Positions 49,647 through 64,000 of a DNA stretch of 64,000 bases are shown here, piece by piece. Positions within the stretch are counted from its first letter, which is position 1. Each line of letters starts with the position of its first letter. The position numbers were made by a program, and so were the translations under genes. Origin of the DNA: Caulobacter soli (GTDB taxonomy: Bacteria > Pseudomonadota > Alphaproteobacteria > Caulobacterales > Caulobacteraceae); assembly GCF_011045195.1 (NCBI RefSeq), contig NZ_CP049199.1, positions 2,666,001 to 2,730,000 on the forward strand, written 5' to 3'. The notes beneath the pieces were generated by a model. The model made no database searches. It saw nothing but the letters and a program-made list of their open reading frames with translations, and was not told the DNA's origin.

Positions 49647-50657
49647 CTAAGGTTTGGACAGGACGATCTGGTCGGACGCGCGCCGCGTGACCCGCGCGAC
49701 GCCGCTGGCTTCCAGGCCCTCGGCGAGGGCTTCGGGATCACCGGCCCGGAAAACGCCGCTGATCGGCGTATGGATCAGGCGCGCATCGGCCAGGACGAGC
49801 TTGCGGTTCGAATAGCGGTTCAGCTCGGCCGCGACCAAGCCCAGCTCGCTTTCATCGAACACCAGATCGCCGTTCAGCCAGCGGGCGGCCTGGGTGGTGT
49901 CGATCGCGCGTCGCGACCAGCCGCCGTCGCCGGACGCGACCAGACGCTCCCCTGGGGTCAGGATCGCCTGACGGGCATCCTGACGAGCCGTCAGGTCGCG
50001 GACAGCCACCTTGCCCTGCAGCAAGGTCACCGTGACGGCCGCGGGTTCGAGATCGACGTCGAACACGGTGCCCAGCGCCGTGACACTGCGCCCCTGAGCC
50101 GTGACCACGAACGGGTGCGCCGCGTCGTGGGCGACCTGGAATTGGGCGCGGCCCCGAGACAGGGTGACGCGACGCACCTTGCCATCGAAGACGGCGCTCA
50201 TCGCCGAGTCTGCGTCGAGCATGACGATCGTGCCATCCGACAAGGCGATGCGGCTGACCTTGCCGACCGGCGTCATGTAGCTGATCGCGGCCAGTTGGAC
50301 TTCACCGGCTGGAGGCGAGATTGGCGGAGCCATCGTCTTCCACGTCAGGCCCAGCGCCACGGCCGCCGCCAGCGAGGCGGCGATCGCAACCGGCGCCCAC
50401 AGGCGCGAGGCCGGCGGCCTGCGCGCGCTGCGCCGGGCTTGGGCCAGCGCGGGGTGATCGGCCAGTTCGCCAACCAGCGCCCATGCGTTCTGAGTTCGAG
50501 CCCAGGCGTCCTGATGCTCCGGAGCCGCGTCGATCCAGGCGTCGAATTCCCGTCGCTCGCTGTCGCTGGCGCGCCCCGACCCCAGACGCGCGTGCCAGCC
50601 GGCGGCGGCGTCAAGCGCCCGCTCGTCAACTGTTCGCATCGTTCCGCTAGAGGTCAT
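49647..50657 (-). CDS. FecR-type transmembrane sigma regulator
   Basis: A 336-residue regulator. The cytoplasmic N-terminal region (DUF4880-like, with AAGWHARLGSGRASDSERREFDAWIDAAPEHQDAW) binds the sigma factor. One membrane segment (about residues 86-105, LWAPVAIAASLAAAVALGL) leads to the periplasmic FecR domain (SDGTIVMLDADSAM, VRRVTLSRGRAQFQVAHDAAHPFVVTA, VTALGTVFDVD) and a C-terminal STN-contacting region. It relays receptor occupancy to the sigma factor. It overlaps the sigma gene by 11 bases. Confidence 0.93.
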   Translation of the reverse strand: MTSSGTMRTVDERALDAAAGWHARLGSGRASDSERREFDAWIDAAPEHQDAWARTQNAWALVGELADHPALAQARRSARRPPASRLWAPVAIAASLAAAVALGLTWKTMAPPISPPAGEVQLAAISYMTPVGKVSRIALSDGTIVMLDADSAMSAVFDGKVRRVTLSRGRAQFQVAHDAAHPFVVTAQGRSVTALGTVFDVDLEPAAVTVTLLQGKVAVRDLTARQDARQAILTPGERLVASGDGGWSRRAIDTTQAARWLNGDLVFDESELGLVAAELNRYSNRKLVLADARLIHTPISGVFRAGDPEALAEGLEASGVARVTRRASDQIVLSKP

Positions 50658-51162
50658 CGTCGCTCCGCAGGCGCTCGGTCAGACGCCGAACCACCTTCAT
50701 GATGTGTTTCTCGACCGCGCTGACGGAGATTCCCATCACGCGGCCCGCCGCCGAATAGCTCATCTGCTCGAACCGGACGAGGATGAACGCCTGCCTTGAC
50801 CTTTCGGGCATGGATTCCAGGACGCTCAGGGCCAGGGCCAGCTGTTGCTTGCCTTCCAAGACGCGATCGGGAGACAAAACCTCAACGGGATGATGAAATT
50901 CCGTCAGCTCGGTGTGCTTGGAGCGGTGACGGGAACGATCGGCGCGCAAGGTGTCGGTCAGGACGCTAGAGGCCACCTGGAAGAGGTAGCCCTCGATATT
51001 GTCGATCGGATCCTTGGTCTGGCGCCGCTCGATGCGCAGCAGGACTTCCTGGACAAGATCGTCGATATCGCCGCCGATCCGCCGCATGAAATAGCCACGC
51101 AGCATCGGCGCGTACCGCCAGACCTCGGTCTGCTCGGGATACGACTCGCCTACCGCGCCCAT
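50647..51162 (-). CDS. FecI-like ECF sigma factor
   Basis: A 171-residue sigma factor starting MGAVGESYPEQ. Region 2 is PMLRGYFMRRIGGDIDDLVQEVLLRIERR and region 4 is LESMPERSRQAFILVRFEQMSYSAAGRVMGISVSAVEKHIMKVVRRL, the FecI-type end. It would drive the receptor genes when FecR signals. A longer frame upstream adds 26 residues without family similarity. It is first in the order sigma, FecR, receptor, ggt on the minus strand and is divergent from an STN-bearing receptor. Confidence 0.92.
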   Translation of the reverse strand: MGAVGESYPEQTEVWRYAPMLRGYFMRRIGGDIDDLVQEVLLRIERRQTKDPIDNIEGYLFQVASSVLTDTLRADRSRHRSKHTELTEFHHPVEVLSPDRVLEGKQQLALALSVLESMPERSRQAFILVRFEQMSYSAAGRVMGISVSAVEKHIMKVVRRLTERLRSDDDL

Positions 51163-51366
51163 GGCCTTTTTCGCGAACACCCGCTGCGGTTCACCCCTGG
51201 CCGCCCCCGCGTCAAGTCGCGAGTCCGGCTTTCCACCCAACCCTCAGATTTTCGCCGCTTGATCCGTGTGAAGCATCATTGGCGCCTAATCTGAGTACAC
51301 TGATATACCGCTTCGGCAGATTTCTATCGTCGCGACAACTGGAGCGATACTCTCGATCACCCTCCC

Positions 51367-53883
51367 TTGAAGCGCGCATTTCTTGCCTCTTTCAGCGTCC
51401 TCGCGGCGTCTTCGGTCCTGTTGGTCCAGCCTGCCGGCGCGGTGTCGGTCGGGTCGCGCCGCACGTATGCGATTCCGCCTTCGAGCCTCGCCGACGCCAT
51501 CAAGTCGCTGGCCTTGCAAAGCGGCAAGCAGGCGTTGTTCTCGGCGCCCGCCCTGGAGGGCCGTCGCACCGCCGGGCTGAACGGCGTCCTGACCGTGGAA
51601 GAGGCGCTGGACCGCCTGCTGCGCGATTCCGGGTTCGACTACCGCATCGTCGCCGATCGGATGATCCTGATCACCGCGCATGCCCCGGTGACCGCGTCCG
51701 GGGCTTCAGCGGCCGAACGGCCCAGCGCGACCGCGAGAGAATCCAGCTCCGTCGACACCGTGATCGTCACGGCGGTGTCCGATGAAGCGCCGCCCAGCGT
51801 CGAGCGCCTGAGCGCCCGTATCCTGGCGGGAAGCGGCGTCTTCGATCCCGGTGAGGTCGCGCGCCTGTCACCGGCGCTCAACGCCCTGCCCTCCGGCGCT
51901 GGGCAGCTCAAGCTGGCCCTGCGCGGCGTATACGGCGCGGGCGAAGCGACCACGCCGGTCTATTTCGGCGGCGCGCCGGTCTCGGGCCCGTCGGGCACCA
52001 ATTCCGATCCGGGTCTGGTGACGCCCGACCTGGCGCTGGTCGACATCGACCACGTCGACGTCCTGCGCGGTCCCCAAGGATTCGACCATGGCGCCGGCGC
52101 TATTGGCGGCGAACTACGCATCGAACCCAACGCCGCCGTGCTGGGGCGTTATGCGGGAGCCGCGACGCTCCAGGGCCGCCTCGTCCAGGGCGGCGCGGCC
52201 GGCGGCATGGTGTCGGTGGTCGAGAACCTGCCGGTGGGCGACGACCTGGCCGTTCGCCTCGTCGCCTATCGTCGCGACAACGGCGGCTATATCGACAACG
52301 TCCGCCTGGGCCGCGACAACACCAACAGCGAGACGACACAAGGCGTGCGCGTGGCGGTCAAGGCCAGGCTTTCGGACCGCCTCGAAGCCTCGGGCATGGC
52401 GGTCTACCAGCAGCGCCGGATTGGCGACACGTCAGTGTGGAACGGCGCCCTGGGCGCCAACCTGTCCGACCGCTACGGCCTCAACAGCAGCGACCACGAT
52501 CTAGGCCTGTCCAGCCTGACCCTGACGTTCCGCCTGCCCCACACCGTGCTCACCAGTACTACGGCCTATTACGGCTGGACGCTGGGCCGACGCCTCGACT
52601 CCACACAGGTCGTCCTGGGACTGGCCGACGATCCAGCCGGATGCCAACGCTATTTCACGACCGCCGCCGACTGCGACGCCACACAGCTGGACGCCTACGC
52701 CGCCTATGCTCGCGGCCGCGCGCCCAGCACCCTGGTCCAGGCCACGGAAATCAAGTCGCTGGTCCAGGAACTGCGCGGCGACGGCGACCTGGGTTCGGGA
52801 CGCTGGGCGGCGGGCCTCTTTCTCGAGCGTCGGCGCGAGCACACGCGTAGCGCCGCGCAAGTCGTTGATGACCAGGGACAGGTCGACCAAGCCGCCGGCT
52901 ATACGGGTCTGCGGACTCTCGGTTCGCGCTTCAACCAGGCCGCCCTCTTCGCCCAGTTCGTCCAGCCCATCGGCGATCGCCTGACCCTGACGGCGGGCGG
53001 TCGCTACGCCGCCACCCGACGGGCGGCTTGGACCGACGTGCTGATCGCCAACATCATCAGCGGTTCGACCACCTCGATGCCGGAACGCACGGCCGACGGC
53101 GGCGAATTCAACCTACGGGCCCGCGCCGAATGGCGGCTGGGTCGCGACGCAAGCCTCTACGTCCAGGCCTCGCAGGGCGCGCGGCCGGGCGGGGTCAATA
53201 CGACGCCCGATCCGGCCCAGGCCGTGCAGACCTTCGCCCCGGATCACCTGTGGAACTACGAGATCGGCGGCCGCCGGGCCTTGTTCCACAACGCGATGAT
53301 TTTCGAAGCCGCGGCCTTCAACATCGACTTCCACGACATGCAGTTCGCCAACGCCACGCCCAAGGGCGCGTTCAGCTATGTGATGAACATCGGCTCGACG
53401 CGGATCCGAGGCCTGGAGACCGCCCTCAAGACCGATCTGGGCCGCGGTCTCAGCCTCGAGTTCAACAGCGCCTTCACCGACGCGCGGCTGACCAGCGTCT
53501 CCGATCTGGCCCTGACGCAGTTCGAGGCTCTGCCCGGCGACCGGGTTCCGAACATCCCGCGCTATCGCCACACCGCCACCCTCGCCTATCGCCGGGCCCT
53601 GACCAGCGATATTTCGGCGTTGCTCAGCTGGCAGAACGAGCGGCGCTCGGCCATTACCTCGAGCTTCCGCCCCGACGATCCGGACTACCTGTACACACCG
53701 GCCGGCTCGCTCGACACCTTCACCTTGGCCCTTGATCGCGGCCACTCGAACCTGACCGTCGCGCTGCGCAACGTCTTCGACAAGGAGACGCCCGATCGCG
53801 CGATCTCGAGCCCCTTTGGCCGCGACCAGATCTATGGCGCGACGCCGCGTACGCTCACCGTGACGGTGCGGCGATCCTGGTGA
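51367..53883 (+). CDS. TonB-dependent receptor with STN signalling domain, left module
   Basis: An 838-residue transducer receptor. The signal peptide (MKRAFLASFSVLAASSVLLVQPAGA) is followed by a secretin/TonB short N-terminal domain (about residues 33-105, with YAIPPSSLADAIKSLALQSGKQALFSAPALEGRRTAGLNG). The plug contains VDHVDVLRGPQGFDHGAGAIGGELRIEPNAA, and the barrel ends VTVRRSW. The STN domain contacts FecR, so this is the likely sensor for the divergent FecI-FecR pair. The start is TTG with no clear Shine-Dalgarno, so translation may be weak or regulated. Confidence 0.9.
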   Translation: MKRAFLASFSVLAASSVLLVQPAGAVSVGSRRTYAIPPSSLADAIKSLALQSGKQALFSAPALEGRRTAGLNGVLTVEEALDRLLRDSGFDYRIVADRMILITAHAPVTASGASAAERPSATARESSSVDTVIVTAVSDEAPPSVERLSARILAGSGVFDPGEVARLSPALNALPSGAGQLKLALRGVYGAGEATTPVYFGGAPVSGPSGTNSDPGLVTPDLALVDIDHVDVLRGPQGFDHGAGAIGGELRIEPNAAVLGRYAGAATLQGRLVQGGAAGGMVSVVENLPVGDDLAVRLVAYRRDNGGYIDNVRLGRDNTNSETTQGVRVAVKARLSDRLEASGMAVYQQRRIGDTSVWNGALGANLSDRYGLNSSDHDLGLSSLTLTFRLPHTVLTSTTAYYGWTLGRRLDSTQVVLGLADDPAGCQRYFTTAADCDATQLDAYAAYARGRAPSTLVQATEIKSLVQELRGDGDLGSGRWAAGLFLERRREHTRSAAQVVDDQGQVDQAAGYTGLRTLGSRFNQAALFAQFVQPIGDRLTLTAGGRYAATRRAAWTDVLIANIISGSTTSMPERTADGGEFNLRARAEWRLGRDASLYVQASQGARPGGVNTTPDPAQAVQTFAPDHLWNYEIGGRRALFHNAMIFEAAAFNIDFHDMQFANATPKGAFSYVMNIGSTRIRGLETALKTDLGRGLSLEFNSAFTDARLTSVSDLALTQFEALPGDRVPNIPRYRHTATLAYRRALTSDISALLSWQNERRSAITSSFRPDDPDYLYTPAGSLDTFTLALDRGHSNLTVALRNVFDKETPDRAISSPFGRDQIYGATPRTLTVTVRRSW

Positions 53884-53941: not shown

Positions 53942-53959
53942 TTGTCACAACTCTTTCGT
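53942..53959 (+). promoter_or_regulatory. Pho-box-like sequence before PLC-phosphatase gene
   Basis: TTGTCACAACTCTTTCGT matches 13 of 18 positions of the enterobacterial Pho box (CTGTCATAWAWCTGTCAY) by eye, with 11-base repeat spacing, and ends 29 bases before the start codon. Confidence 0.45.
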
Positions 53960-53988
53960 AGCCATGCCGGCTTCCACGGAGGAATCCC

Positions 53989-55749
53989 ATGCTCGGCCTG
54001 TCGCTTTCCGCCCTGCTCGCCCTCGCGCCCGTCGGCGCCGCCCAACCCCTGAAACTGAACGACATCACGGCGGTCGGCACCCACAACAGCTACAAGCTGG
54101 CCGTGCCCGCCGACGAGATGGCGACCATGATCGCGGCGCGCGGACAGCCGGTTCTGGGTCTCGATTACGGCCACCGTCCATTGAACGAGGAACTGGACCT
54201 CGGCGCGCGGCAACTGGAGATCGACGTGGTGCGCGATCCGCAGGGCGGCCGGTTCGCCAGGCCGCTGACGGCGCTGGGCGGCGGGATCGTCCCCTCGCCC
54301 GCCTTCGCCAAGGCCATGGCCCAGCCGGGCTACAAGGTCATGCACATGCCCGACGTCGATTTCCGCTCATCGTGCCTGACCTTCGTCGAATGCCTGACCG
54401 TGGTGCGGACCTGGTCCAAGGCCCATCCCGACCACGCGCCGATCCTGATCCTGATCAACGCCAAAGAGGGTCCAGCCAGCCTGCCCGGCGGCGCGGCGGC
54501 TCTGCCCTTTGACGAGAAGGCGTTCGACGCCCTGGACGCCGAGGTCCGCACCGTCTTCTCCGACGCCGAACTGATCACGCCCGACCAGGTGCGCGGCGGC
54601 AAGCCGACCCTGCGCGAGGCGGTGCTGGCCGGCGGCTGGCCGACGCTGGCCCAGGCGCGCGGCAAGGTGTTCATCGCCCTGGACGAAGACCCGGGAAAGG
54701 TGGCGCTCTATCGCGGCGGCCGCAAATCGCTGGAAGGCCGGGTCATGTTCGTCAACACCGACGAGACCGCGCCGGACGCCGCCTACCTGACGCTCAACGA
54801 TCCGATCGGCCAGCACGATCGCATCGCCGCCGCCGTCAGAGCCGGCTTCATCGTCCGCACCCGAGCCGACGCCGACACTTGGGCCGCGCGCCGCAACGAG
54901 GTCTCGCAACGCACGGCCGCCCTGACCAGCGGCGCCCAGTATGTCTCGACCGACTACATGCAGGCCGATCCCCGCTTCGCCGGCGGCTACGCGGTGCGGT
55001 TGACCGGCGGCGCCGTGGCCGTCTGCAATCCGGTGCGGGCGGCAGAGCGCTGCCCGGACGGTCCGCTGGAGACCCTGCCCGGCGCGCCGGCCGTAGGCTA
55101 TCTCGCCCCCGCCGCGCGGCCGGACCTGACCAAGATTCTGGCCGCCCCGCCTCCTCCCGGCTCGCCCCGCGCCATCGCCGACGCCGCCATCTTCGACCAG
55201 AGCCGGTCACTGAAGGACAGCCCGCGCTGGAAACTGGCCACCGCCGACGTGGACGGCTCGGTGTTCGGCCACTTCGCCGACGCCCTGGGCGTGCGCCTGA
55301 CCCCGGCTTCGGCCCCTGTCCTGGCCGCTCTGCTGGATCGAGCTGGCGAGGATCGTTCCGTGGTCGGCGTGGCCAAAAGCCACTGGAAGACGCGCCGGCC
55401 CTATCTCGACAAGAAGGACGCGCCGATCTGCGAGGCCAAGTCCGACCACCTTGCCGGCAACCCGGACTATCCCTCCGGCCACTCCGCCCACGGCATGCAC
55501 GTGGCGATGATCCTGGCCGAGGTCGCGCCCAGCCGCGCCGACGCGCTTTACGCCCGAGGTCGGGAATATGCCGAAAGCCGCTGGATCTGCGGGTCACACA
55601 CCGTCAGCGCCACCGAGGCCGGGGTGCAGTCGGGCGCGGTGATCTACGCCGCCGAGCATGCTTCGCCGTTCTTCCGCCAGGACATCGAGGCCGCTCGAGC
55701 GGAAGTCGCGGCCGCCCTGGCCCAAGCTCCGGCGACGGCTCGGCCGTGA
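53989..55749 (+). CDS. Exported phosphoinositide-PLC / class A acid phosphatase fusion
   Basis: A 586-residue two-domain protein behind a hydrophobic signal (MLGLSLSALLALAPVGAA, no basic n-region). Residues about 22-350 match the Ca2+-dependent phosphoinositide phospholipase C family: His32 in GTHNSYK, LDYGHRPLNEELDLGARQLEID, and VMHMPDVDFRSSCLTFVECL. Residues about 370-586 carry the class A acid phosphatase/PAP2 signature: K463-x6-RP, PSGH (495-498), and S530-R-x5-H537. The Asp normally four after the His is Ala541. It would cleave phospholipid head groups and remove phosphate from the product in the periplasm or outside. GGAGGAA precedes the ATG. Confidence 0.88.
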   Translation: MLGLSLSALLALAPVGAAQPLKLNDITAVGTHNSYKLAVPADEMATMIAARGQPVLGLDYGHRPLNEELDLGARQLEIDVVRDPQGGRFARPLTALGGGIVPSPAFAKAMAQPGYKVMHMPDVDFRSSCLTFVECLTVVRTWSKAHPDHAPILILINAKEGPASLPGGAAALPFDEKAFDALDAEVRTVFSDAELITPDQVRGGKPTLREAVLAGGWPTLAQARGKVFIALDEDPGKVALYRGGRKSLEGRVMFVNTDETAPDAAYLTLNDPIGQHDRIAAAVRAGFIVRTRADADTWAARRNEVSQRTAALTSGAQYVSTDYMQADPRFAGGYAVRLTGGAVAVCNPVRAAERCPDGPLETLPGAPAVGYLAPAARPDLTKILAAPPPPGSPRAIADAAIFDQSRSLKDSPRWKLATADVDGSVFGHFADALGVRLTPASAPVLAALLDRAGEDRSVVGVAKSHWKTRRPYLDKKDAPICEAKSDHLAGNPDYPSGHSAHGMHVAMILAEVAPSRADALYARGREYAESRWICGSHTVSATEAGVQSGAVIYAAEHASPFFRQDIEAARAEVAAALAQAPATARP

Positions 55750-55750
55750 A

Positions 55751-55764
55751 GATTTCGTGAAATC
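55751..55764. repeat. GATTTC-GT-GAAATC palindrome
   Basis: Perfect 6-base arms directly after the PLC-phosphatase stop and 126 bases before the next receptor. It is possibly a regulator site for the receptor promoter. Confidence 0.3.
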
Positions 55765-55889
55765 CGCATCGCGTCGCTGAGGGGGTGTCGGGGGGCGTCG
55801 TTGATCGGTTCGGAGGGGCGCGTGCGCCGGGTTCAGGCCCGACGCACGGCGACCGTCGGAACCCTGACGATCCGCGGAGATCAACGAAG

Positions 55890-58682
55890 ATGCACCGAAT
55901 GAAAGCCCAGAGCGGGCGCACCGCCCTGCTGCTGTCCACCGTCGCCGCGGCCGCCCTGGCGGCCGGCGTCGCCCAGGCCCGTCAGGCGGCTCAGCCGGCC
56001 GACAACACCCAGGTCGACGAGATCGTCGTCACGGGCTCGTTCACCAACAGCCTCAAGGACGCCCTGCTGCTGAAGCGCAACGCCGACGGCGTCAGCGACG
56101 CGGTCTCGGCTTCGGACATCGGCAACTTCCCGGCCGTCAACGTCGCCGAGGCCCTGCAGCGCGTGCCCGGCGTGTCGATCTCGCGCGAAGCCGGCGAAGG
56201 CCAGTTCGTCAGCGTCCGGGGCCTGGGCCCCAACTTCCAGGCGGTCACCCTGAACGGCTCGCCGATCGCCTATAACGAAAACATCCGCAACTCCGACCAG
56301 AGCGGTCGCCAGTTCCAGTTCCGGGTCATCCCGGCCGACCTGATCTCGGCCATCGTCGTGGCCAAGACCCCGACCCCGGACATGATCGACGGCGGCATCG
56401 GCTCGAACATCGACATCCGCCTGGCCAGCGCCCTGAACACCGATCCGTTCGTCTCGGCCCGCGCCTTCACGCACTATGAAAACCGCACCGAGGAGCACAC
56501 GCCGAACGGCTCGCTGTCGGGCGCCTGGCGCAACAAGGACGGCACGTTCGGCGTCGTCGCCGGTGTGTCGTACCAGACCCGCGACGTGCAGTTCGATCGC
56601 TTCCAGAGCTTCGGCTACACCAAGCGCGTGATCGACGGCCAAAGCGTCAACGTGGCCAACGACATCACCCTGACCCTGGAGCACGAAGAGCGCCGTCGCC
56701 TCAGCGCCATGGCCGGCCTGCAGTGGAAGCCGGTCGACAACCTGTCGATCACGCTCGACACGCTCTATTCGAACTTCAAGAACAAGATCGACGAGAACCG
56801 GGTCGGCTTCGAGTGGGGCGGCCGCGCCGACTTCGCCAGCCGCCTGGTCCCCGGCAGCGCCGTGGTCAAGAACGGCGTCCTCTACGGCGGCACGATCAAC
56901 GGCGGTCGGGTCAGCCGCAACGCCGAGTTCTCCGAGCAGAACCACGACAACATCTTCGTCAAGCTGGCGGCCGACTACGCGGTGGGTGGCTGGACCTTCA
57001 AGCCGTCGATCAGCCACTCCGAAGCCAAGAGCGGTCTGGACACCCCGCTGCAGCGCCTGGAAAGCCGCACGGCCGACAACGCCGCTGGCCTGACCTACAG
57101 CTTCGCCTATGGCGACGACCCGGTCGGCGACAAGACGGTGGCCAAGGTCAACACCAACCTGAACCTGCTGAGCCCGACCTCGACCGCCTTCTCCAGCTAC
57201 CGCATCCGGCCGACCAATTCTAAGGACAAGGACACGACGGGCCTGTTCGACCTGTCACGCAAGCTGGACTTCGGAAGCGACGCCTTCCGCCTGGGCGAAC
57301 TGCGCGTCGGCGGCCAGTACACCGACCGCAGCCGCGACTATCAACGTCGCGACCGGGTGATGACCGCCCGTCCCGGCGTGACCGTCGACGGCAGTTTCCT
57401 GGATTACCGTCTGAACTCGAACATCTTCGACAAGACGATCGACAACGGCATCGGTCCTTGGATGAGCTTCAACCGCAGCAAGTTCATGGGCGCCTTCGTC
57501 GTGCCCAACGGCGAATACAACGGAGCCGAGCCGCAGTCCGACGACCTGGTCGCCACCGGCGCCGACATGCAGCAGTCCTACTATGTCGGCGAAGAAGTGC
57601 GGGCCCTTTACGGCCGCGCCGATTTCGAAAGCCTGCTGGGCGGCAAGTCGGTCTCGGGTAATTTTGGCGTGCGCTGGGTGTCGACCGACACCACCGTCAA
57701 GGGCACCCTGCTGACCGCCACGACGGGCGCCGGCGGCGCGGTCACCACCGTGATCACGCCCAAGACCTTCGAAGGCTCGTACGACAAGTTCCTGCCCAGC
57801 CTGAACGTCAAGGTCGACCTGACCGACCAGTTGCTGTTGCGCCTGGCCGCCTCGCGCAGCCTGACGCGTCCGTCGCTGGCCGACCTGCGCACCGCCACCG
57901 TGCCCAACAGCTCGCTGATTTCTGACGTCTACGAGCGTGGCCAACTGGCCCTGAACCAAGCCTCGGCCAGCGCCAAGGTCGGGGTCGGCGGCAATCCGGA
58001 GCTGCTGCCCTACACCTCGACCAATTTCGACGCCTCGCTGGAGTGGTATTTCAGCAAGTTCGGCGGCGTGTCGGTGGCGGCGTTCCACAAGGACATCAGC
58101 GACTTCATCGGCGCGATCGCCCGTCCCGAGACGGTGGTGTTCTCCACCCGCGCCGGCCAGACCCTGACCTCGGACCTGCTGATCACCCGTCCGCAGAACA
58201 TCGGCGACGCCAAGATCTCGGGCGTCGAGTTCGGCGCCTCCTACAAGCTGGACTTCGGCCTGGGCATCGCCGCCTCGGCCACCTTCACCGACAGCGAGGG
58301 CGAAATCCAGACCGCCGCCGGTACGACCAAGGCCAAGCTGCAGGGTGTGTCCGACACCAGCTACTCGATCAGCCCGTTCTTCGAAAAGGGTCCGTTCGAG
58401 ATCCACTTCAGCTACACCTACCGCTCGGAATTCGCGGCCAACGGCAACATCAGCCCTGGCTCCAACGCCGTGACCGACCCGAACGCCGCCATCCTGGCCG
58501 ACGGCTTCGGCACCTGGGACGTCGGCGCCTCGTGGAGGCTGAACAAGCAATTCCAAGTCTTCCTGGAAGGCACCAACATCACCGACCAGCGGCAAGGCGT
58601 GTATCAGGGCAACAAGGACCAGTTGTTCCAGATCCACGAATACGGTCCCAGCTACAACTTCGGCCTGCGAGCGACCTTCTGA
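55890..58682 (+). CDS. TonB-dependent receptor, Xanth-Caul type, without STN
   Basis: A 930-residue receptor of the Xanthomonas/Caulobacter group. Signal peptide from the second Met (MKAQSGRTALLLSTVAAAALAAGVAQA), TonB box DEIVVTGSF, then the family plug ALLLKRNADGVSDAVSASDIGNFP, AEALQRVPGVSISREAGEGQFVSVRGLGP, NENIRNSDQSGRQFQF and DMIDGGIGSNIDIR. The barrel ends FGLRATF. It is 140 bases after the PLC-phosphatase gene. Its plug is nearly the same as that of the STN-bearing receptor 2 kb downstream, so the two are recent paralogs and probably bind related ligands. Confidence 0.95.
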   Translation: MHRMKAQSGRTALLLSTVAAAALAAGVAQARQAAQPADNTQVDEIVVTGSFTNSLKDALLLKRNADGVSDAVSASDIGNFPAVNVAEALQRVPGVSISREAGEGQFVSVRGLGPNFQAVTLNGSPIAYNENIRNSDQSGRQFQFRVIPADLISAIVVAKTPTPDMIDGGIGSNIDIRLASALNTDPFVSARAFTHYENRTEEHTPNGSLSGAWRNKDGTFGVVAGVSYQTRDVQFDRFQSFGYTKRVIDGQSVNVANDITLTLEHEERRRLSAMAGLQWKPVDNLSITLDTLYSNFKNKIDENRVGFEWGGRADFASRLVPGSAVVKNGVLYGGTINGGRVSRNAEFSEQNHDNIFVKLAADYAVGGWTFKPSISHSEAKSGLDTPLQRLESRTADNAAGLTYSFAYGDDPVGDKTVAKVNTNLNLLSPTSTAFSSYRIRPTNSKDKDTTGLFDLSRKLDFGSDAFRLGELRVGGQYTDRSRDYQRRDRVMTARPGVTVDGSFLDYRLNSNIFDKTIDNGIGPWMSFNRSKFMGAFVVPNGEYNGAEPQSDDLVATGADMQQSYYVGEEVRALYGRADFESLLGGKSVSGNFGVRWVSTDTTVKGTLLTATTGAGGAVTTVITPKTFEGSYDKFLPSLNVKVDLTDQLLLRLAASRSLTRPSLADLRTATVPNSSLISDVYERGQLALNQASASAKVGVGGNPELLPYTSTNFDASLEWYFSKFGGVSVAAFHKDISDFIGAIARPETVVFSTRAGQTLTSDLLITRPQNIGDAKISGVEFGASYKLDFGLGIAASATFTDSEGEIQTAAGTTKAKLQGVSDTSYSISPFFEKGPFEIHFSYTYRSEFAANGNISPGSNAVTDPNAAILADGFGTWDVGASWRLNKQFQVFLEGTNITDQRQGVYQGNKDQLFQIHEYGPSYNFGLRATF

Positions 58683-58710
58683 TCCATTCGATCGACATCC
58701 TCGTGGCTTG

Positions 58711-58736
58711 CGCCCCCTCCTTCACGGGAGGGGGCG
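58711..58736. terminator. Terminator-like hairpin after Xanth-Caul receptor
   Basis: A perfect 10-bp stem CGCCCCCTCC / GGAGGGGGCG with a 6-base loop, 28 bases after the stop and 23 before the sigma gene. No T-tract. Confidence 0.6.
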
Positions 58737-58758
58737 TTCGCGCGCGCCTGGGCGGGCC

Positions 58759-59274
58759 ATGCTGATGACCCCGCACTCGACCGACGTCACCAAGCTGCGC
58801 GCCGAGCTGGTCGGTTACCTGCAGCGCAAGGGCCAGCCCCTGGATGACGCCGAGGATCTGGTCCAGGAAGCCTTCGCCCGTTTCCACCGGGCGGGGCATC
58901 GGGCCAACGACATTGACGCCCGCCCCCTGCTCTTCGCCATCTCCAAGAACCTGTTGAAGGACCAGTGGAAGGCGACCAATCGCGAACGCGCGCGCGGGGC
59001 CTGGCTGGACGCCGACGCCATGACGGCCGCCTGGGAGACCACGCCCAGCGACGCCCCCTCGGCCGATCGCCATTCGATCGCCCGTCAGGACCTCGCGGGC
59101 GTGGCCGAGGCGATCCGGGCCCTGCCGCCTCGCTGCCGCGACGCCTTCCTGCTGCACCGCTTCGAGGATCTGAGCTATCGACAGATCGCCGAACGCCTGG
59201 GCGTTTCGGTCAGCATGGTCGAAAAGCACCTCGCCGAGGCGCTCAAGCGGCTGAAAGCCGCGCGGGAGACCTGA
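58759..59274 (+). CDS. FecI-like ECF sigma factor of the right module
   Basis: A 171-residue sigma factor. Region 2: AELVGYLQRKGQPLDDAEDLVQEAFARFHR; region 4: IRALPPRCRDAFLLHRFEDLSYRQIAERLGVSVSMVEKHLAEALKRL, the FecI form. It starts the order sigma, FecR, STN receptor, phospholipase on the plus strand. The first ATG and a second two codons in are both possible, neither with a strong ribosome binding site. It ends 4 bases before FecR. Confidence 0.92.
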   Translation: MLMTPHSTDVTKLRAELVGYLQRKGQPLDDAEDLVQEAFARFHRAGHRANDIDARPLLFAISKNLLKDQWKATNRERARGAWLDADAMTAAWETTPSDAPSADRHSIARQDLAGVAEAIRALPPRCRDAFLLHRFEDLSYRQIAERLGVSVSMVEKHLAEALKRLKAARET

Positions 59275-59278
59275 GGTC

Positions 59279-60331
59279 ATGCGCCCGCCGATCGTTGAGA
59301 AGACTAGACCCCGTCCGGAAAGCCGCCCCTCCGACATGCTCGACTGTCTCGCCCGCCTCTTGGAACGTCAGCCGCGAACGGCGGAGGACTGGGTCGTGCG
59401 CCTGGGTCGCCCCAAGGTCTCGCCTCGCGACCTGAACGCGTTCGAGGCTTGGCTGAATGTCGATCCGCGCCATCTCGAGGACTACAGCGCCCTAAAGGCG
59501 ACGGTTCGCGAGAGCCAGGCTTTGCGCGCCGAGTTCGTCGGCGACCTGAACTTGATCCCCCGCACCGCGAAAGCTCGCCGCCGTCCGCGCGCCATCTGGC
59601 TGGCCCCTGTCGTTGGCGGCCTGGCCGCCGCCGCTCTGGTCATGGTCGTGTGGCCAGCCGGAGATCCGATGGCCGGCGCGACGACCTACCAGACCGCCGT
59701 CGGCGAGATCCGCGAGATCGTGCTGACCGACGGCTCGCGCGTGACCCTCGACACCGCCACAACTCTGCGGGCGCGCTTGGATGGCCCCGTGCGTCGGATC
59801 GCGCTGGACAAGGGAACCGCCTATTTCGCCGTCGCCCACGACAAGACTCATCCGTTCCAAGTGGCCCTGGCCGACCGCCAGGTGATCGTCACCGGCACGC
59901 ACTTCACCACCGGCGTCCGGGACGGCCAAGCCCAGGTGACGGTGCTGGAGGGCAGCGTGGCGGTCAGCCGTGTTCATCCCGATCAAACCGACGCGCTACG
60001 CGACGCCACGCGCCTGAAACCGGGCGATCAGGTTTCGTACCGCGCCGGCGCGCCGCTGATGCGTGAGGCGCGTGTCGATCCGGCCCAAGCCGCCGCCTGG
60101 CGCGAGCATCGATTGATCTTCCAGGACGTCGCCTTGACCGAGGTCGTGGCCGAGTTGTCACGCTACACCGCGACCCGAATCCGGATCGCCGATCCGGCTC
60201 TGGGACGTCGCCGGGTCACCGCCATCTTCCCCCTGGACGGCGCCGACTCCGTGATCGCTCGGGCCGACCGCCTGCTGCCGATCAGCGTGACCCGCACCGG
60301 TCCTGGCGAGGTGACGGTCCAGGCGCGCTGA
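59279..60331 (+). CDS. FecR-type transmembrane sigma regulator of the right module
   Basis: A 350-residue regulator: cytoplasmic sigma-binding N-terminus (LARLLERQPRTAEDWVVRLGRP, FEAWLNVDPRHLEDYSAL), a membrane segment (about residues 107-127, IWLAPVVGGLAAAALVMVVW), the FecR domain (TDGSRVTLDTATTLRARLDG, GTAYFAVAHDKTHPFQV, VIVTGTHFTTGV), and the C-terminal receptor-contact region ending VTVQAR. It carries the signal from the downstream STN receptor to the sigma factor. The start lies 4 bases after the sigma stop, so translation is coupled. Confidence 0.93.
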   Translation: MRPPIVEKTRPRPESRPSDMLDCLARLLERQPRTAEDWVVRLGRPKVSPRDLNAFEAWLNVDPRHLEDYSALKATVRESQALRAEFVGDLNLIPRTAKARRRPRAIWLAPVVGGLAAAALVMVVWPAGDPMAGATTYQTAVGEIREIVLTDGSRVTLDTATTLRARLDGPVRRIALDKGTAYFAVAHDKTHPFQVALADRQVIVTGTHFTTGVRDGQAQVTVLEGSVAVSRVHPDQTDALRDATRLKPGDQVSYRAGAPLMREARVDPAQAAAWREHRLIFQDVALTEVVAELSRYTATRIRIADPALGRRRVTAIFPLDGADSVIARADRLLPISVTRTGPGEVTVQAR

Positions 60332-60363
60332 CGACCTTTTCAAGCAAGCCCGGCATCGCAAGT

Positions 60364-60381
60364 CTGTCATCAACCCGCGAT
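60364..60381 (+). promoter_or_regulatory. Pho-box-like sequence before STN receptor
   Basis: CTGTCATCAACCCGCGAT: the first half-site CTGTCAT is perfect, and 13 of 18 positions match the enterobacterial Pho box by eye. It lies 41 bases before the receptor start. Confidence 0.45.
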
Positions 60382-60422
60382 ACCAAACCTCCGGGTGCGC
60401 AGGGGGCTCCGTTCGTCGTCAG

Positions 60423-63404
60423 ATGCCGTTTCGTCGCGCGCTCGCCGTCATCGCAGCCGCCGGCGTTCCGCTGGCCGTCGTGGCGTCGCCGGTCCAGGCC
60501 GCGGCCGCCTTCCATATTCCCGCCCAGGACGCCCGCACCGCCCTGATGGCCCTGTGCCTGAAGGGCGGCTGCGCCTTCGCCTTCGTGGTCGAGCCGGGGC
60601 GCGCCTATCGCACCAACGCGGTCGACGGCGTCATGTCGTGGCGAACCGCCGTCAATCGAATGCTGGCCGGCACCGGCCTGCGTCACGAGTTCATCGATCA
60701 GCGCTCCGTGCGGATCTGGGCCGAGGCCTCTCCCCCCCTGCCTCCATCGCGCGCGCCTTCCGTCGATCCGGGTCCCGCCGAGGTCGACGCCGTAACCGTG
60801 ACGGCCAGCTTTTCCGAAGGCATAGAGGCTTCGCTGGTCGCCAAGCGTCGCGCCGACGCGATCATCGATTCCGTCTCGGCCGGCCGGATGGGCGAGCTGC
60901 CGGCCGCCAACCTGGCCGAGGCCCTGCAGCGCGTCCCGGGCGTAGCCATCGAGCGCGAGGTCGGCGAGGGCCAGTTCGTCAGCGTTCGCGGCCTGGGTCC
61001 TCTATTCCAATCGGTGACCCTGAACGGCGCGCCGGTGGCGTTCAACGAGAACATCCGCAACTCCACTCAGAGCGGCCGGCAGTTCCGTTTCCGAGCCCTG
61101 TCGGCTGATCTGCTGGCCGGGGCGGTGCTGGCCAAGTCGCCGACCGCCGACCTGATCGACGGCGGCATCGGCTCCAATATCGACATCCGCACCGTGAGAG
61201 GCCTGGATGGTCCAAGCTACCTGTCGGCGCGGATCGACGGACACATCGAGGAACGTTCCGGTGTGGTTTCCCCCGACGTGGCGTTGTCGGGTCGCTGGCG
61301 ACGAGGCGACGGCGCGCTCGGCGTGGTCGGCGGCGTCTCCACCGAGACGCGCGAAGTGCGCTACGACCGCTTCCAGATCCAGCGCTGGCGCGACATCCAG
61401 ATCGGCGGGCGCGCCGTGCTCACGCCGAACGACCTGCGCACGACGGTCGAACGCGAGGATCGCCGCAGGGCCACGGCGTTCGCCGGCCTGGAGTGGCGGC
61501 CGTCGAACCAGACGACGATCGAGCTGAACGCCCTGGCCTCGCGGTTCGACAACGCCATCCGCGAGGACCGGATCATCTATGAAATTGGTGATCGGGCCGC
61601 CACGCCTGCTCTGGAGCCGGCCAGCCTGGTGGTCACAGACGGGGTGATGACCGCCGCGCGACTGACGGCCGGCCAAGTCAGCAACAACACCGAAATCTCC
61701 GACCAGGCCCATGACAGTCTGTCGCTGAACCTTTCGGCCCAGACCCGCTTGGGCGCATGGAGCGTCACGCCTCGCCTCAGTTGGTCACGCGCCCGTTCGG
61801 GCCTCGACACACCGCTGCAACGCATCGCGGCGGAGTCGCCGGAGGGCGTCGGCTATCGTTTCGACCTCGGCCCGGATCTGGTGGACGCACGCCAGATGCC
61901 GGTTCTCGACACCACCTTCGACCTGACCGACCCGCGCGCCCTGACCTATGCGCGCTATGGCGTGCGGGCGACCAATGTCGAGGACCACGACCGCACCGCC
62001 TTGCTGGCCGGCCAGCGACCGGTCGACATTCATCTTGGCCCCCTCCGCTTTGAACGCCTGGACCTCGGCGCCCAGCTCAGCGACCGGGGTCGTGACTACC
62101 AGCGGCGCGACCGCGAGGCGGTGTTGAGGCCCGGTGAGGTCATCTCGCCCGGCTTCTTCGATATCCACACGCCCAATGACGTGTTCGGCGGCTTGATCAC
62201 CACGCGCACCGGCCCGTGGACGGCCATCGACTTCTCCGCCTTTCGGGCCGCCTTCGTCCTGCCGGGCGAGGCCGACACGGTGATCGTCCAGGCGCAAGAC
62301 CTGAACCCGACCGGCGCCGACCTGCAGAACTCCTACAAGGTCGGCGAGCAGATCGCGGCCCTCTACGGCCGGACGGACTTCGCCACGACCATCCTCGGGC
62401 GCCCCGCCTCGGGCAATCTGGGCCTGCGCGTCAGCCGCACGCGGACGCGGGTGGAGGGCTCGTTGCTCGGCGTTTCCCCGACCGGCGAACTGGAGGTGCA
62501 CCCGGTCGAGCACGGCGGCGCCTATCTGGTCGCCCTGCCCAGCGCCAACCTCGCCATTGAACTGAATCCGACCTGGCGGCTTCGCCTGGCCGCTTCGCGC
62601 AGCATCACCCGGCCGTCACTGGCCGACCTGCGCTCGGCGACCATTCCGGCCAGCAGCCTGGTCTCCACACTTTACAATCGCGGCCAGGCCGAGATCGATC
62701 ATCCCTCGCCCGACACTCTGTTCAGCGGCGTGGGCGGTAACCCGGACCTGAAACCCTACATCTCTACCAATCTCGACGCCTCGCTGGAGCGGGACTTCGC
62801 GGGCTTCGGCGGCTTCAGCCTGGCGGCCTTTCACAAGACCATCGACGACTACATCACCCAGACCGCCAGCCCCGAGCGCCTGGCCTTCGCCACCCGCGCC
62901 GGACCGCCGGTGACGGCTACCGTGATGATGGCCAGGCCCCGTAACACAGGCCGCGCCCAGGTATCGGGCGTGGAGATTGCCTTCAGCCGCCGCTTCCCCG
63001 GCGGGCTTGGCGTCTGGACCAGCGCCACCCTGATCGACGCCGAGACGCGCAATCGCGTCACCGGCGAGCACAATCGGCTGAACGGAGTTTCCCGCCTCTC
63101 CTACTCGATCAGCCCCTTCGTCGAGCGCGGTCCGCTACACGCCCATCTCTCGTGGACCTGGCGCTCTTCGTTCGGTTCGGAGGCCGACATGCAGGGCGGT
63201 GGCGTGTCGAGCTTCGTCGTCGCCGATGCGGGCTATCTGGACGTCGCGGGCTCGTACGATCTGGGCCGCTCGATGGTGCTGTTCGTCGAGGCCAGCAACC
63301 TGACCGACACCACCGAAGCGGCCTTCGAGGGACGACCGGGGCGGCCCCTGCAGATTGGCCGCGCGGGTCGCGCCTTCGGCGTGGGCTTCAGGATGCGACT
63401 GTAG
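60423..63404 (+). CDS. TonB-dependent receptor, Xanth-Caul type, with STN domain
   Basis: A 993-residue transducer receptor. After a signal peptide ending near AAAA, an STN domain spans about residues 25-102 (FHIPAQDARTALMALCLKGGCAF to RSVRIWAEA). The plug is AEALQRVPGVAIEREVGEGQFVSVRGLGP, NENIRNSTQSGRQFRF and DLIDGGIGSNIDIR; the barrel ends FGVGFRMRL. It closely resembles the receptor at 55.9 kb but adds the STN domain, so this copy should both sense and transport. The ligand is unknown; linked phospholipases suggest a phosphoester. Confidence 0.95.
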   Translation: MPFRRALAVIAAAGVPLAVVASPVQAAAAFHIPAQDARTALMALCLKGGCAFAFVVEPGRAYRTNAVDGVMSWRTAVNRMLAGTGLRHEFIDQRSVRIWAEASPPLPPSRAPSVDPGPAEVDAVTVTASFSEGIEASLVAKRRADAIIDSVSAGRMGELPAANLAEALQRVPGVAIEREVGEGQFVSVRGLGPLFQSVTLNGAPVAFNENIRNSTQSGRQFRFRALSADLLAGAVLAKSPTADLIDGGIGSNIDIRTVRGLDGPSYLSARIDGHIEERSGVVSPDVALSGRWRRGDGALGVVGGVSTETREVRYDRFQIQRWRDIQIGGRAVLTPNDLRTTVEREDRRRATAFAGLEWRPSNQTTIELNALASRFDNAIREDRIIYEIGDRAATPALEPASLVVTDGVMTAARLTAGQVSNNTEISDQAHDSLSLNLSAQTRLGAWSVTPRLSWSRARSGLDTPLQRIAAESPEGVGYRFDLGPDLVDARQMPVLDTTFDLTDPRALTYARYGVRATNVEDHDRTALLAGQRPVDIHLGPLRFERLDLGAQLSDRGRDYQRRDREAVLRPGEVISPGFFDIHTPNDVFGGLITTRTGPWTAIDFSAFRAAFVLPGEADTVIVQAQDLNPTGADLQNSYKVGEQIAALYGRTDFATTILGRPASGNLGLRVSRTRTRVEGSLLGVSPTGELEVHPVEHGGAYLVALPSANLAIELNPTWRLRLAASRSITRPSLADLRSATIPASSLVSTLYNRGQAEIDHPSPDTLFSGVGGNPDLKPYISTNLDASLERDFAGFGGFSLAAFHKTIDDYITQTASPERLAFATRAGPPVTATVMMARPRNTGRAQVSGVEIAFSRRFPGGLGVWTSATLIDAETRNRVTGEHNRLNGVSRLSYSISPFVERGPLHAHLSWTWRSSFGSEADMQGGGVSSFVVADAGYLDVAGSYDLGRSMVLFVEASNLTDTTEAAFEGRPGRPLQIGRAGRAFGVGFRMRL

Positions 63405-63429
63405 CCTCGCCGTCCCTCAACCGCCCGAT

Positions 63430-63447
63430 CTGTCACCTCACGGACAT
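63430..63447 (+). promoter_or_regulatory. Pho-box-like sequence before phospholipase C gene
   Basis: CTGTCACCTCACGGACAT matches 13 of 18 Pho-box positions by eye (first half-site 6 of 7). It lies 46 bases before the start codon. Confidence 0.4.
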
Positions 63448-63483
63448 CTGGCGTGGCTAGACAGTGAACCAGCATCACCTTTC

Positions 63484-63493
63484 GGAACGTTCC
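63484..63493. repeat. Perfect palindrome GGAACGTTCC directly before a start codon
   Basis: This 10-base palindrome abuts the phospholipase ATG where a ribosome binding site would be. It may be a binding site, or may limit translation. Confidence 0.3.
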
Positions 63494-64000
63494 ATGCCCC
63501 CAGTCGATCGTCGCGCCTTCCTGCTCTCCGCGACCGCCGCGCTGGCCTTGCCGCCGACCCTCGCCAAGGCCGCGGCCATCCCCGCGGACGTGCGCACCGG
63601 CACGCTGAAGGACGTGGAGCACGTGGTGATCCTGATGCAGGAGAACCGCGCCTTCGATCACTATTTCGGCGTGATGAATGGCGTCCGGGGCTTTGGCGAT
63701 CGCTTCCCGATCCCGCTGCCCGATAGTCCTGGCTTGCGCCACAAGACGGTTTGGACCCAGGTCAACGACACGGCGAAGGGCGGGCCGCCGCTCATCTCGC
63801 CCTTCCCGTTGGACACGATAAAGACCTTCGCCCACATGCGGGTCGAGAGCACGCCCCATAGCTGGTCCGACGCCCACGCCGCCTGGAACGAAGGCCGCAT
63901 GAACCGCTGGCCCGCCGCCAAGACCGAGCGCGCCATGGGCTATTACCGCCGCGAAGACATCCCGTTCCAGTACGCGATGGCCGACGCCTTCACGCTCTGC
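63494..64000 (+). CDS. Phosphocholine-type phospholipase C, N-terminal part
   Basis: The first 169 residues of an exported enzyme, running off the window end in frame. A twin-arginine signal (DRRAFLLSATAALALP) leads to the phosphoesterase family start GTLKDVEHVVILMQENRAFDHYFGVMNGVRGFGDRF, in which the ENRAFDHYFG motif (metal-binding Glu-Asn region) is characteristic of phosphocholine-specific phospholipase C and acid phosphatase AcpA relatives. PHSWSDAHAAWNEGRMNRW also fits. It would split phosphatidylcholine or sphingomyelin into diacylglycerol and phosphocholine. Confidence 0.92.
   Translation, partial: MPPVDRRAFLLSATAALALPPTLAKAAAIPADVRTGTLKDVEHVVILMQENRAFDHYFGVMNGVRGFGDRFPIPLPDSPGLRHKTVWTQVNDTAKGGPPLISPFPLDTIKTFAHMRVESTPHSWSDAHAAWNEGRMNRWPAAKTERAMGYYRREDIPFQYAMADAFTLC

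Follow-up and report, generated by a model that had tools for sequence, protein, structure and literature searches.

A putative phosphate-controlled receptor, sigma factor and phospholipase module in Caulobacter soli

We analysed a 64,000-nucleotide stretch of the Caulobacter soli genome (contig NZ_CP049199.1; G000:C1:2666001-2730000 in a 5.68 Mb genome), hereafter the window. Its right-hand end carries a locus of six genes: a fusion of phosphatidylinositol-specific phospholipase C (PI-PLC) with a PAP2 phosphatase-like domain, two TonB-dependent receptors (TBDR1 and TBDR2), an extracytoplasmic function (ECF) sigma factor, a FecR-type regulator and a phosphocholine-specific phospholipase C (PC-PLC), here PLC1. 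We are moderately confident that this locus is a phosphate-starvation-controlled outer-membrane foraging module for phosphorus from phospholipids. Four observations carry this reading, namely the gene content, a gene order conserved in relatives, a recurring promoter-like element with fixed spacing, and the ranking of Pho-box-like sites within the window. The earlier note on this DNA had listed these genes as lying in one direction, and Pfam and NCBIfam searches recovered all of them on the + strand. The features are as follows.

53942..53959, +: Pho-box-like direct repeat TTGTCAC-AACT-CTTTCGT upstream of the fusion gene (rank 1 of 47)
53989..55749, +: PI-PLC/PAP2 fusion, predicted secreted, with a Ca2+-dependent PI-PLC domain (PF16670) and a class A acid-phosphatase-like PAP2 domain (Pfam/NCBIfam)
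55746..55763, +: direct repeat GTGAAGA-TTTC-GTGAAAT with an 11-bp period, predicted activator site, overlapping the fusion stop codon
55778..55803, +: TGAGG-N14-GTCGTTG, predicted promoter of the module ECF sigma factor
55890..58682, +: TonB-dependent receptor TBDR1, without an STN domain, occupying the receptor slot (TIGR01782, 623 bits)
58765..59274, +: FecI-like ECF sigma factor (Sigma70_r2 and Sigma70_r4_2)
59279..60331, +: FecR-like anti-sigma regulator (PF04773 and DUF4880)
60353..60381, +: Pho-box-like site ATCGC-AAGT-CTGTCAT between FecR and TBDR2 (rank 2 of 47)
60423..63404, +: predicted signalling receptor TBDR2, with a weak STN domain, a plug and a beta-barrel (TIGR01782, 515 bits)
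63430..63447, +: Pho-box-like site CTGTCAC-CTCA-CGGACAT, then GCTAGAC, in the PLC1 upstream region (rank 4 of 47)
63494..64000, +, running past the window (L010:1495-3609): PLC1, presumed Tat-exported PC-PLC (TIGR03396)

Gene order and promoter elements in related loci

A contig scan with TBDR2 returned 26 loci. We kept 22 of these (L044-L065, 49-73% identity), all from Caulobacterales records except that the record of L049 is labelled only Alphaproteobacteria, and left out four distant matches from Opitutaceae/Verrucomicrobia (L066-L069, 25-28% identity). The order receptor, sigma factor, FecR, TBDR2 was collinear on one strand in 19 of the 22 loci. The other three were incomplete (truncation in L049 and L063, and a missing FecI in L044, where the assembly has probably collapsed) and were kept in all denominators of 22. 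Conservation of the order in other Caulobacterales was a check proposed in the earlier note, and because the order is kept in relatives, the arrangement is more than chance.

The PI-PLC/PAP2 fusion adjoined the module in 11 of the 22 loci, upstream of the receptor slot in eight (L044, L045, L048, L050, L051, L052, L054, L059) and just downstream of TBDR2 in three (L060, L062, L065). By the earlier note's own criterion, its proposal would suffer if relatives consistently paired the receptors with unrelated enzymes. No such consistent pairing emerged: apart from the fusion, no non-module gene family was common to more than three of the 22 loci by clustering of open reading frames (ORFs), in which not every family was identified. 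Five of the families common to L060, L062 and L065 were compared with PDB sequences: one resembled a potassium channel (33.8 bits), one PspA/Vipp1 (28.3 bits), and three gave no match.

The PI-PLC query matched 46 of 199 Caulobacteraceae genomes, 27 of them with full-length fusions, while TBDR2 (>50% identity) was found in 15. Full-length fusions occurred in 13 of the 15 genomes with TBDR2 (all except G180 and G214) versus 14 of the 184 without it, in counts that ignore kinship, and the two genes were linked in 8 of the 13 genomes holding both. We also inspected all 19 unlinked full-length fusions together with one of 19 PI-PLC-only loci. A TonB receptor gene was directly adjacent in 14 of these 20 loci and lay beyond a FecR gene in one more (L152). 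Receptor family c1 was present in 12, family c8 in six and both in three, with c1 in 12 of the 15 loci from genomes without TBDR2 and in none of the five from genomes with TBDR2 elsewhere. The enzyme is therefore a recurrent neighbour of TonB receptors from several families.

The element TGAGG-N14-GTCGTTG preceded the slot receptor in the window and, with the same spacing, in 19 of the 20 related loci holding this region; L064 differs. Copies with this spacer also stood before the PI-PLC fusion in L052, L054 and L059, where L051 has a version with a single mismatch, and between the sigma and FecR genes in L048, L050, L060, L062 and L065. Across 976 kb, a total that counts the end of the window twice, we found 28 distinct module sites and one other match of different spacing; mononucleotide shuffles gave a mean of 0.45 matches for spacers of 12-16. 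These sites are not all independent, since some loci are close relatives.

A scan of 17 genomes showed an element match at the start of the slot receptor in all 17 (G024 and G038 placed by distance to TBDR2 only). It returned 48 exact matches, compared with one for a reversed-pattern control. The 22 matches within the module comprised 17 before the slot receptor, two before PI-PLC (G201, G221) and three between the slot receptor and TBDR2. Several of the genomes belong to the same species as fetched loci, so the two sets of counts are not independent. The element, judged by these scans, is not exclusive to the module, and its position and spacing carry the argument. A search for GCTRAGG-N11-16-GTCGTTG gave three matches in the window genome, one of them the slot-receptor site. 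We conclude that TGAGG-N14-GTCGTTG is probably the promoter recognised by the sigma factor of this module. The coupling of enzyme, receptor and sigma factor that the earlier note had proposed thus finds in silico support in both the recurrent linkage and a shared promoter element.

A second motif, GTGAA-N6-[AG]TGAA, precedes the slot receptor in the window and in all 20 related loci that cover this region. The sequence GTGAANNTTNNRTGAA had one exact match in the genome, the slot-receptor repeat itself, and seven one-mismatch matches elsewhere. We considered this 11-bp repeat as a Pho box and rejected it: under a matrix trained on pstC promoters, p in 21 sequences ranged from 0.005 to 0.47 for the sense strand and from 0.016 to 0.28 for the opposite one. 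Because that matrix fits poorly, the factor acting at the repeat is left unnamed.

This Pho position weight matrix was built from 13 distinct sites in the pstC promoters of 30 Caulobacter loci, found by a seed matrix that was widened after the pst box of the window genome was known. Their consensus is CTGTCGT-AAAA-CTGTCGT, followed about 10 nucleotides on by CATAAG. It replaced a generic Pho-box matrix that we dropped as evidence because with it a mononucleotide-shuffled window reached 17.3, above the 14.7 of the best site. We then ranked 47 upstream regions in the window, taken from 50 self-called ORF genes of which three had regions too short to score. The top four all belonged to the locus, namely PI-PLC (14.54), TBDR2 (11.28), the slot receptor (9.30) and PLC1 (8.98), and the fifth-ranked region scored 7.33. 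The chance of filling all four top ranks is 2.8e-5 if five regions belong to the locus and 8.4e-5 if six do. The first base of the top-ranked site, 53942, is also where the stretch delimited by the earlier note begins.

Segment shuffles reached the observed score in 1 of 300 trials for PI-PLC, 4 for TBDR2, 16 for the slot receptor and 12 for PLC1; for the slot receptor the shuffled segment was not identical to the ranked region and had an observed score of 7.16. For the segment upstream of FecI, 163 of 300 shuffles reached its Pho score. The gap between FecR and TBDR2 contained CTGTCA[CT] in all 22 sequences (the window and 21 loci), preceded by an ATCGCA-type half-site in 19 and followed 8 nucleotides later by GCTAAGG in 10. 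Compared with random 110-nucleotide stretches, the TBDR2 box was significant in 19 of the 22 sequences (p = 0.0003-0.021). Other FecI/FecR modules of the genome (seven loci) scored -1.9 to 8.6 versus 11.3 in the window, a control that is weak because the strand assigned to the selected ORF is doubtful in L001 and L008. High Pho-like scores also occurred upstream of two genes beyond the window, PLC2 (12.84) and the gene for a DUF5690 protein (12.59), each reached by 1 of 300 shuffles. The phosphate regulation that the earlier note had suggested is in keeping with this ranking, and the locus is probably under phosphate control.

Receptors, signalling proteins and enzymes

The locus holds the gene set of FecA-type surface signalling, in that an ECF sigma factor, a FecR-type regulator and a TonB receptor occur together, and this set is kept in 19 of 22 loci. 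The sigma factor was 56-79% identical across the 19 loci with all four module genes. FecR has one likely membrane span near residues 106-124, with a hydropathy maximum of 2.34 at residue 106. The N-terminal STN domain typical of FecA-type receptors is weak in TBDR2 of the window, scoring 20.6 bits, under the Pfam cut-off of 28.4. It was matched at E<=0.01 in 21 of 22 TBDR2 sequences (the window and 21 orthologues), and PF07660 (STN) is precomputed for many TBDR2 homologues. The description of TBDR2 in the earlier note as a paralogous, STN-bearing receptor therefore held for paralogy (TBDR1 and TBDR2 are 45% identical), while its STN part is sub-threshold in the window protein itself and draws its support from the orthologous set.

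Both receptors carry plug and beta-barrel domains according to Pfam. In 19 loci the receptor between the promoter and the sigma gene belongs to a single family, TBDR_A (mean pairwise identity 80%), whose mean identity to the two receptors of the window is 24-29% in the receptor family and tree analysis. No TBDR_A match was found in the window genome at E<=1e-150, and in this genome and Caulobacter sp. AP07 (L044) a TBDR2 paralogue occupies the slot behind the same promoter element. Since a different and well-conserved family fills the slot in 19 loci, we read the paralogous first receptor, from its sequence relationships, as a lineage-specific replacement of TBDR_A. The slot receptor of L064 is split across two ORFs. 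Caulobacter sp. K31 carries both receptors according to its UniProt records. Searched against sequences of solved structures, TBDR2 gave no match, and a slot receptor from another locus matched only colicin I receptors (34.8 bits over about 100 residues).

TBDR_A occurred without TBDR2 in six of the 199 genomes. In L162 it adjoins a PI-PLC 54% identical to that of the window with no FecI/FecR, which we count in favour of a phosphorus-foraging role. As a separate observation, a CehA/McbA-like metallohydrolase family lies near TBDR1 or TBDR_A relatives in L160, L162, L163 and L164 and may be an alternative partner enzyme; it adjoins TBDR_A in L160, and relatives scoring below the model cut-off of 80 lie beside TBDR1 relatives in L163 and L164. 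A third TIGR01782 receptor of the window genome (L010:14912-17758) shares a mean identity of 45% with the c1 receptors that flank the fusion in other genomes, and lies beside sulfotransferase and hydroxylase-like genes.

The PI-PLC-C1 domain (PF16670) of the fusion scored 401 bits, above its cut-off, and spans the whole model. This half is related to PI-PLC1 (PDB 3h4w) and the phosphatase half to the class A acid phosphatases 1iw8 and 1d2t. The motif THNSY was kept in 30 of 30 fusions covering that part and the histidine of the second PI-PLC motif (HMPD/HIPD) in 31 of 31 covering it, out of 32 aligned; we take the conserved histidines to be catalytic. Class A non-specific acid phosphatases bear the signature KX6RP...PSGH...SRX5HX3D. 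The window fusion keeps KX6RP, PSGH and SRX5H, does not match the full signature, and scored only 107.5 bits against the APhasePhoC model (cut-off 430). Two residues after the Ala that replaces the final signature Asp lies a conserved Glu.

PLC1 starts at about 63494 (its longest ORF at 63464) and its 3' end lies outside the window. The full protein scored 884 bits with TIGR03396 (cut-off 580.25), contains both PF04185 and PLipase_C_C, and is closest to PDB chain 9gy2 (740 bits). We presume Tat export from the motif DRRAFLL, seen in the sequence rather than called by a predictor; Sec and Tat signals were judged by eye. No PC-PLC was found in the fetched flanks of the 22 related loci. The earlier note had treated two phospholipases as the coupled property of the module; this pairing is not conserved, since within the fetched flanks a PC-PLC stands beside the module only in the window genome, and the Tat phospholipase is, on this comparison, a local addition.

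Downstream of PLC1, outside the window, lie genes for the DUF5690 protein, a PhnR-like GntR regulator (241.5 bits, below the cut-off of 296.75), the second PC-PLC (PLC2, 770.5 bits) and a PhnZ/TmpB-like HD oxygenase (210.3 bits with TIGR03276, slightly short of the cut-off of 214.6), whose closest solved relative is TmpB (6npa). The same stretch also encodes PhnX, a phosphonoacetaldehyde hydrolase scoring 327 bits (cut-off 220), and an oxidoreductase that matches TIGR03364 at 404 bits against a cut-off of 285. Of the three PF04185 phosphoesterases encoded in the genome, two are in this neighbourhood. These domain matches indicate that a phosphonate-catabolism cluster with two PC-PLCs adjoins the locus. 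The interleaving of the two enzymes with phosphonate genes (L010:1495-10742) may point to a cluster for scavenging phosphonolipids or aminoethylphosphonate.

Proposed mechanism and alternatives

From the observations above we infer the promoter role of the element, binding of PhoB, the substrate, the ligand, the direction of signalling and transport. Under low phosphate, PhoB would activate the fusion gene, TBDR2 and, in the window genome, the PC-PLC through the Pho boxes. The exported enzymes would cut phospholipids or glycerophosphodiesters into head-group phosphoesters and phosphate, and a phosphorylated head group or related product would bind TBDR2, whose STN domain would signal through FecR to the ECF sigma factor. 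The sigma factor, probably together with a regulator on the 11-bp-phased repeat, would then fire from TGAGG-N14-GTCGTTG and raise the operon of slot receptor, sigma factor and FecR; in several loci of the Brevundimonas type it would raise the PI-PLC gene too. Import through the slot receptor would bring the product to the periplasm, where it would be dephosphorylated and taken up.

A bolder version, which we offer only tentatively and regard as doubtful, is that the sigma factor drives both phospholipase and importer as an AND gate with phosphate starvation. A little phospholipase would be made first, TBDR2 would sense its product before full commitment, and swapping the receptor behind the fixed promoter, as seen in this lineage, would change the phosphoester that is harvested. 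In the window genome, the two PC-PLCs among the phosphonate-oxidation genes may extend such a scheme to phosphonolipids.

Several results weigh against the foraging reading. Pho boxes are degenerate, as the success of a shuffle with the generic matrix showed, and the pstC matrix was trained on one orthologous promoter; the TBDR2 box was not significant in L046, L047 and L064 (p = 0.31, 0.08 and 0.06, respectively). The PI-PLC gene of the window genome has no sigma element, and 26 of the 48 exact element matches lie outside the module, several being one sequence repeated across genomes. No PI-PLC was found in the fetched flanks of nine loci (L046, L047, L053, L055-L058, L061 and L064), where flanks extended up to 10 kb, less where contigs end, and that of L064 covered only 1.3 kb upstream. 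The fusion is unlinked to TBDR2 in 5 of the 13 genomes holding both, and other neighbour families recur in two or three loci. Next to TBDR_A we found a GH130 phosphorylase in L159 and, directly upstream, an H+-pyrophosphatase gene in L157, L158 and L161, which are from genomes without TBDR2 (protein domain-scanned in L157 only). In the phosphatase, Ala replaces the final signature Asp (H+4) in all 31 fusions that span the position (32 aligned), and because of this loss phosphatase activity of the fusion should not be assumed.

The substrates could instead serve as sources of carbon or nitrogen (inositol, choline, glycerol, fatty acids), with phosphate incidental and the sigma module sensing the head group as a carbon signal. 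TIGR01782-type receptors are often tied to carbohydrates, and the GH130 phosphorylase of L159 and an alpha-amylase-domain family near the module in two loci (L058, L061) fit this idea. We nevertheless consider it unlikely in view of the Pho-box ranking, the phosphatase-like domain fused to the phospholipase, the adjoining phosphonate-catabolism cluster and the lack of a further non-module family common to more than 3 of 22 loci. That the module is an ordinary iron-siderophore or heme signalling system with phospholipases as chance neighbours appears quite improbable, even though FecI/FecR/STN-receptor architecture is classically iron-linked and the genome has 19 FecR matches. PI-PLC is found repeatedly, both before and after the module, and carries the module's promoter element in L052, L054, L059 and genome G221, and no siderophore or heme gene was found among the 20 module neighbours that were scanned with Pfam, most neighbours being left unscanned.

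We give a small chance to membrane remodelling, in which the enzymes would mainly attack lipids of the cell itself under phosphate starvation and the receptors would serve another purpose. C. crescentus does degrade phospholipids at low phosphate, and the available text on its PhoB regulon includes a phospholipase C (PMC11208175), but the enzymes here are predicted to be exported, and in four Brevundimonas-type loci the same promoter element stands before PI-PLC and before a TonB receptor gene.

Known systems and flanking genes

The foraging module proposed here combines features of three known systems. In PUMA3 (VreA-VreI-VreR) of P. aeruginosa, an ECF sigma factor and anti-sigma factor are coupled to PhoB, and the sigma-dependent promoters have a direct-repeat pho box upstream of the -35 region and a separate -10 element, according to the portion of the source available (PMC4971064). 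Both systems share a receptor, ECF sigma and anti-sigma cascade under phosphate/PhoB control, which is predicted here. This likeness is one of architecture. As for control features, the Pho-like boxes rank 1-4 of 47, and the 11-bp repeat precedes the predicted element but fits the Pho matrix poorly. VreA, as described in the same text, lacks a beta-barrel and seems not to transport (PMC4971064), whereas the present locus has two full TonB receptors and a PI-PLC/phosphatase within both the locus and the set of promoter elements. We did not file the locus as PUMA3 because both receptors have plug and barrel.

In the PUS loci of F. johnsoniae (PUSI, PusCD), TonB-type transporter genes cluster with phosphodiesterases and are induced by phosphate depletion, and one PUS enzyme is tabled as a Ca2+-dependent phosphoinositide phospholipase C / pf16670 in the accessible part of the report (PMC8115612). 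PUS loci use SusC/SusD pairs, and the same part of the report does not mention a FecI-FecR switch or an acid-phosphatase fusion (PMC8115612); no SusD-like family was found among the locus genes scanned with Pfam/NCBIfam. The order and domain content of sigma factor, FecR and STN receptor resemble the FecI-FecR-FecA ferric citrate system. The differences are the phosphate-linked boxes, the second receptor upstream of the sigma gene and the associated phospholipases.

The PhoB regulon of C. crescentus, in the same genus, includes phosphate-controlled TonB receptors, phospholipase C, phosphatases and a phosphodiesterase in the excerpts available (PMC11208175; PMC2996285), and we count this for the foraging reading. 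Those excerpts describe no receptor-sigma-FecR module coupled to a phospholipase C, and text searches of the papers available to us, judged from their result lists, returned none describing this combination. Phosphate-regulated TonB receptors are thought to import organic phosphorus, without assigned substrates in the part of the source consulted (PMC11208175). Together, the receptor family, the enzyme and the predicted sigma promoter suggest a class of substrates that can be tested. Few of the many TonB receptors of Caulobacterales have a known ligand. If the reading is right, phosphorus foraging would be controlled by sensing of its product, an unusual role for cell-surface signalling outside iron uptake.

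Directly upstream of the locus, at window positions 49647-53883, we found a second FecR/FecI pair with a divergent STN receptor that is not of the TIGR01782 kind.

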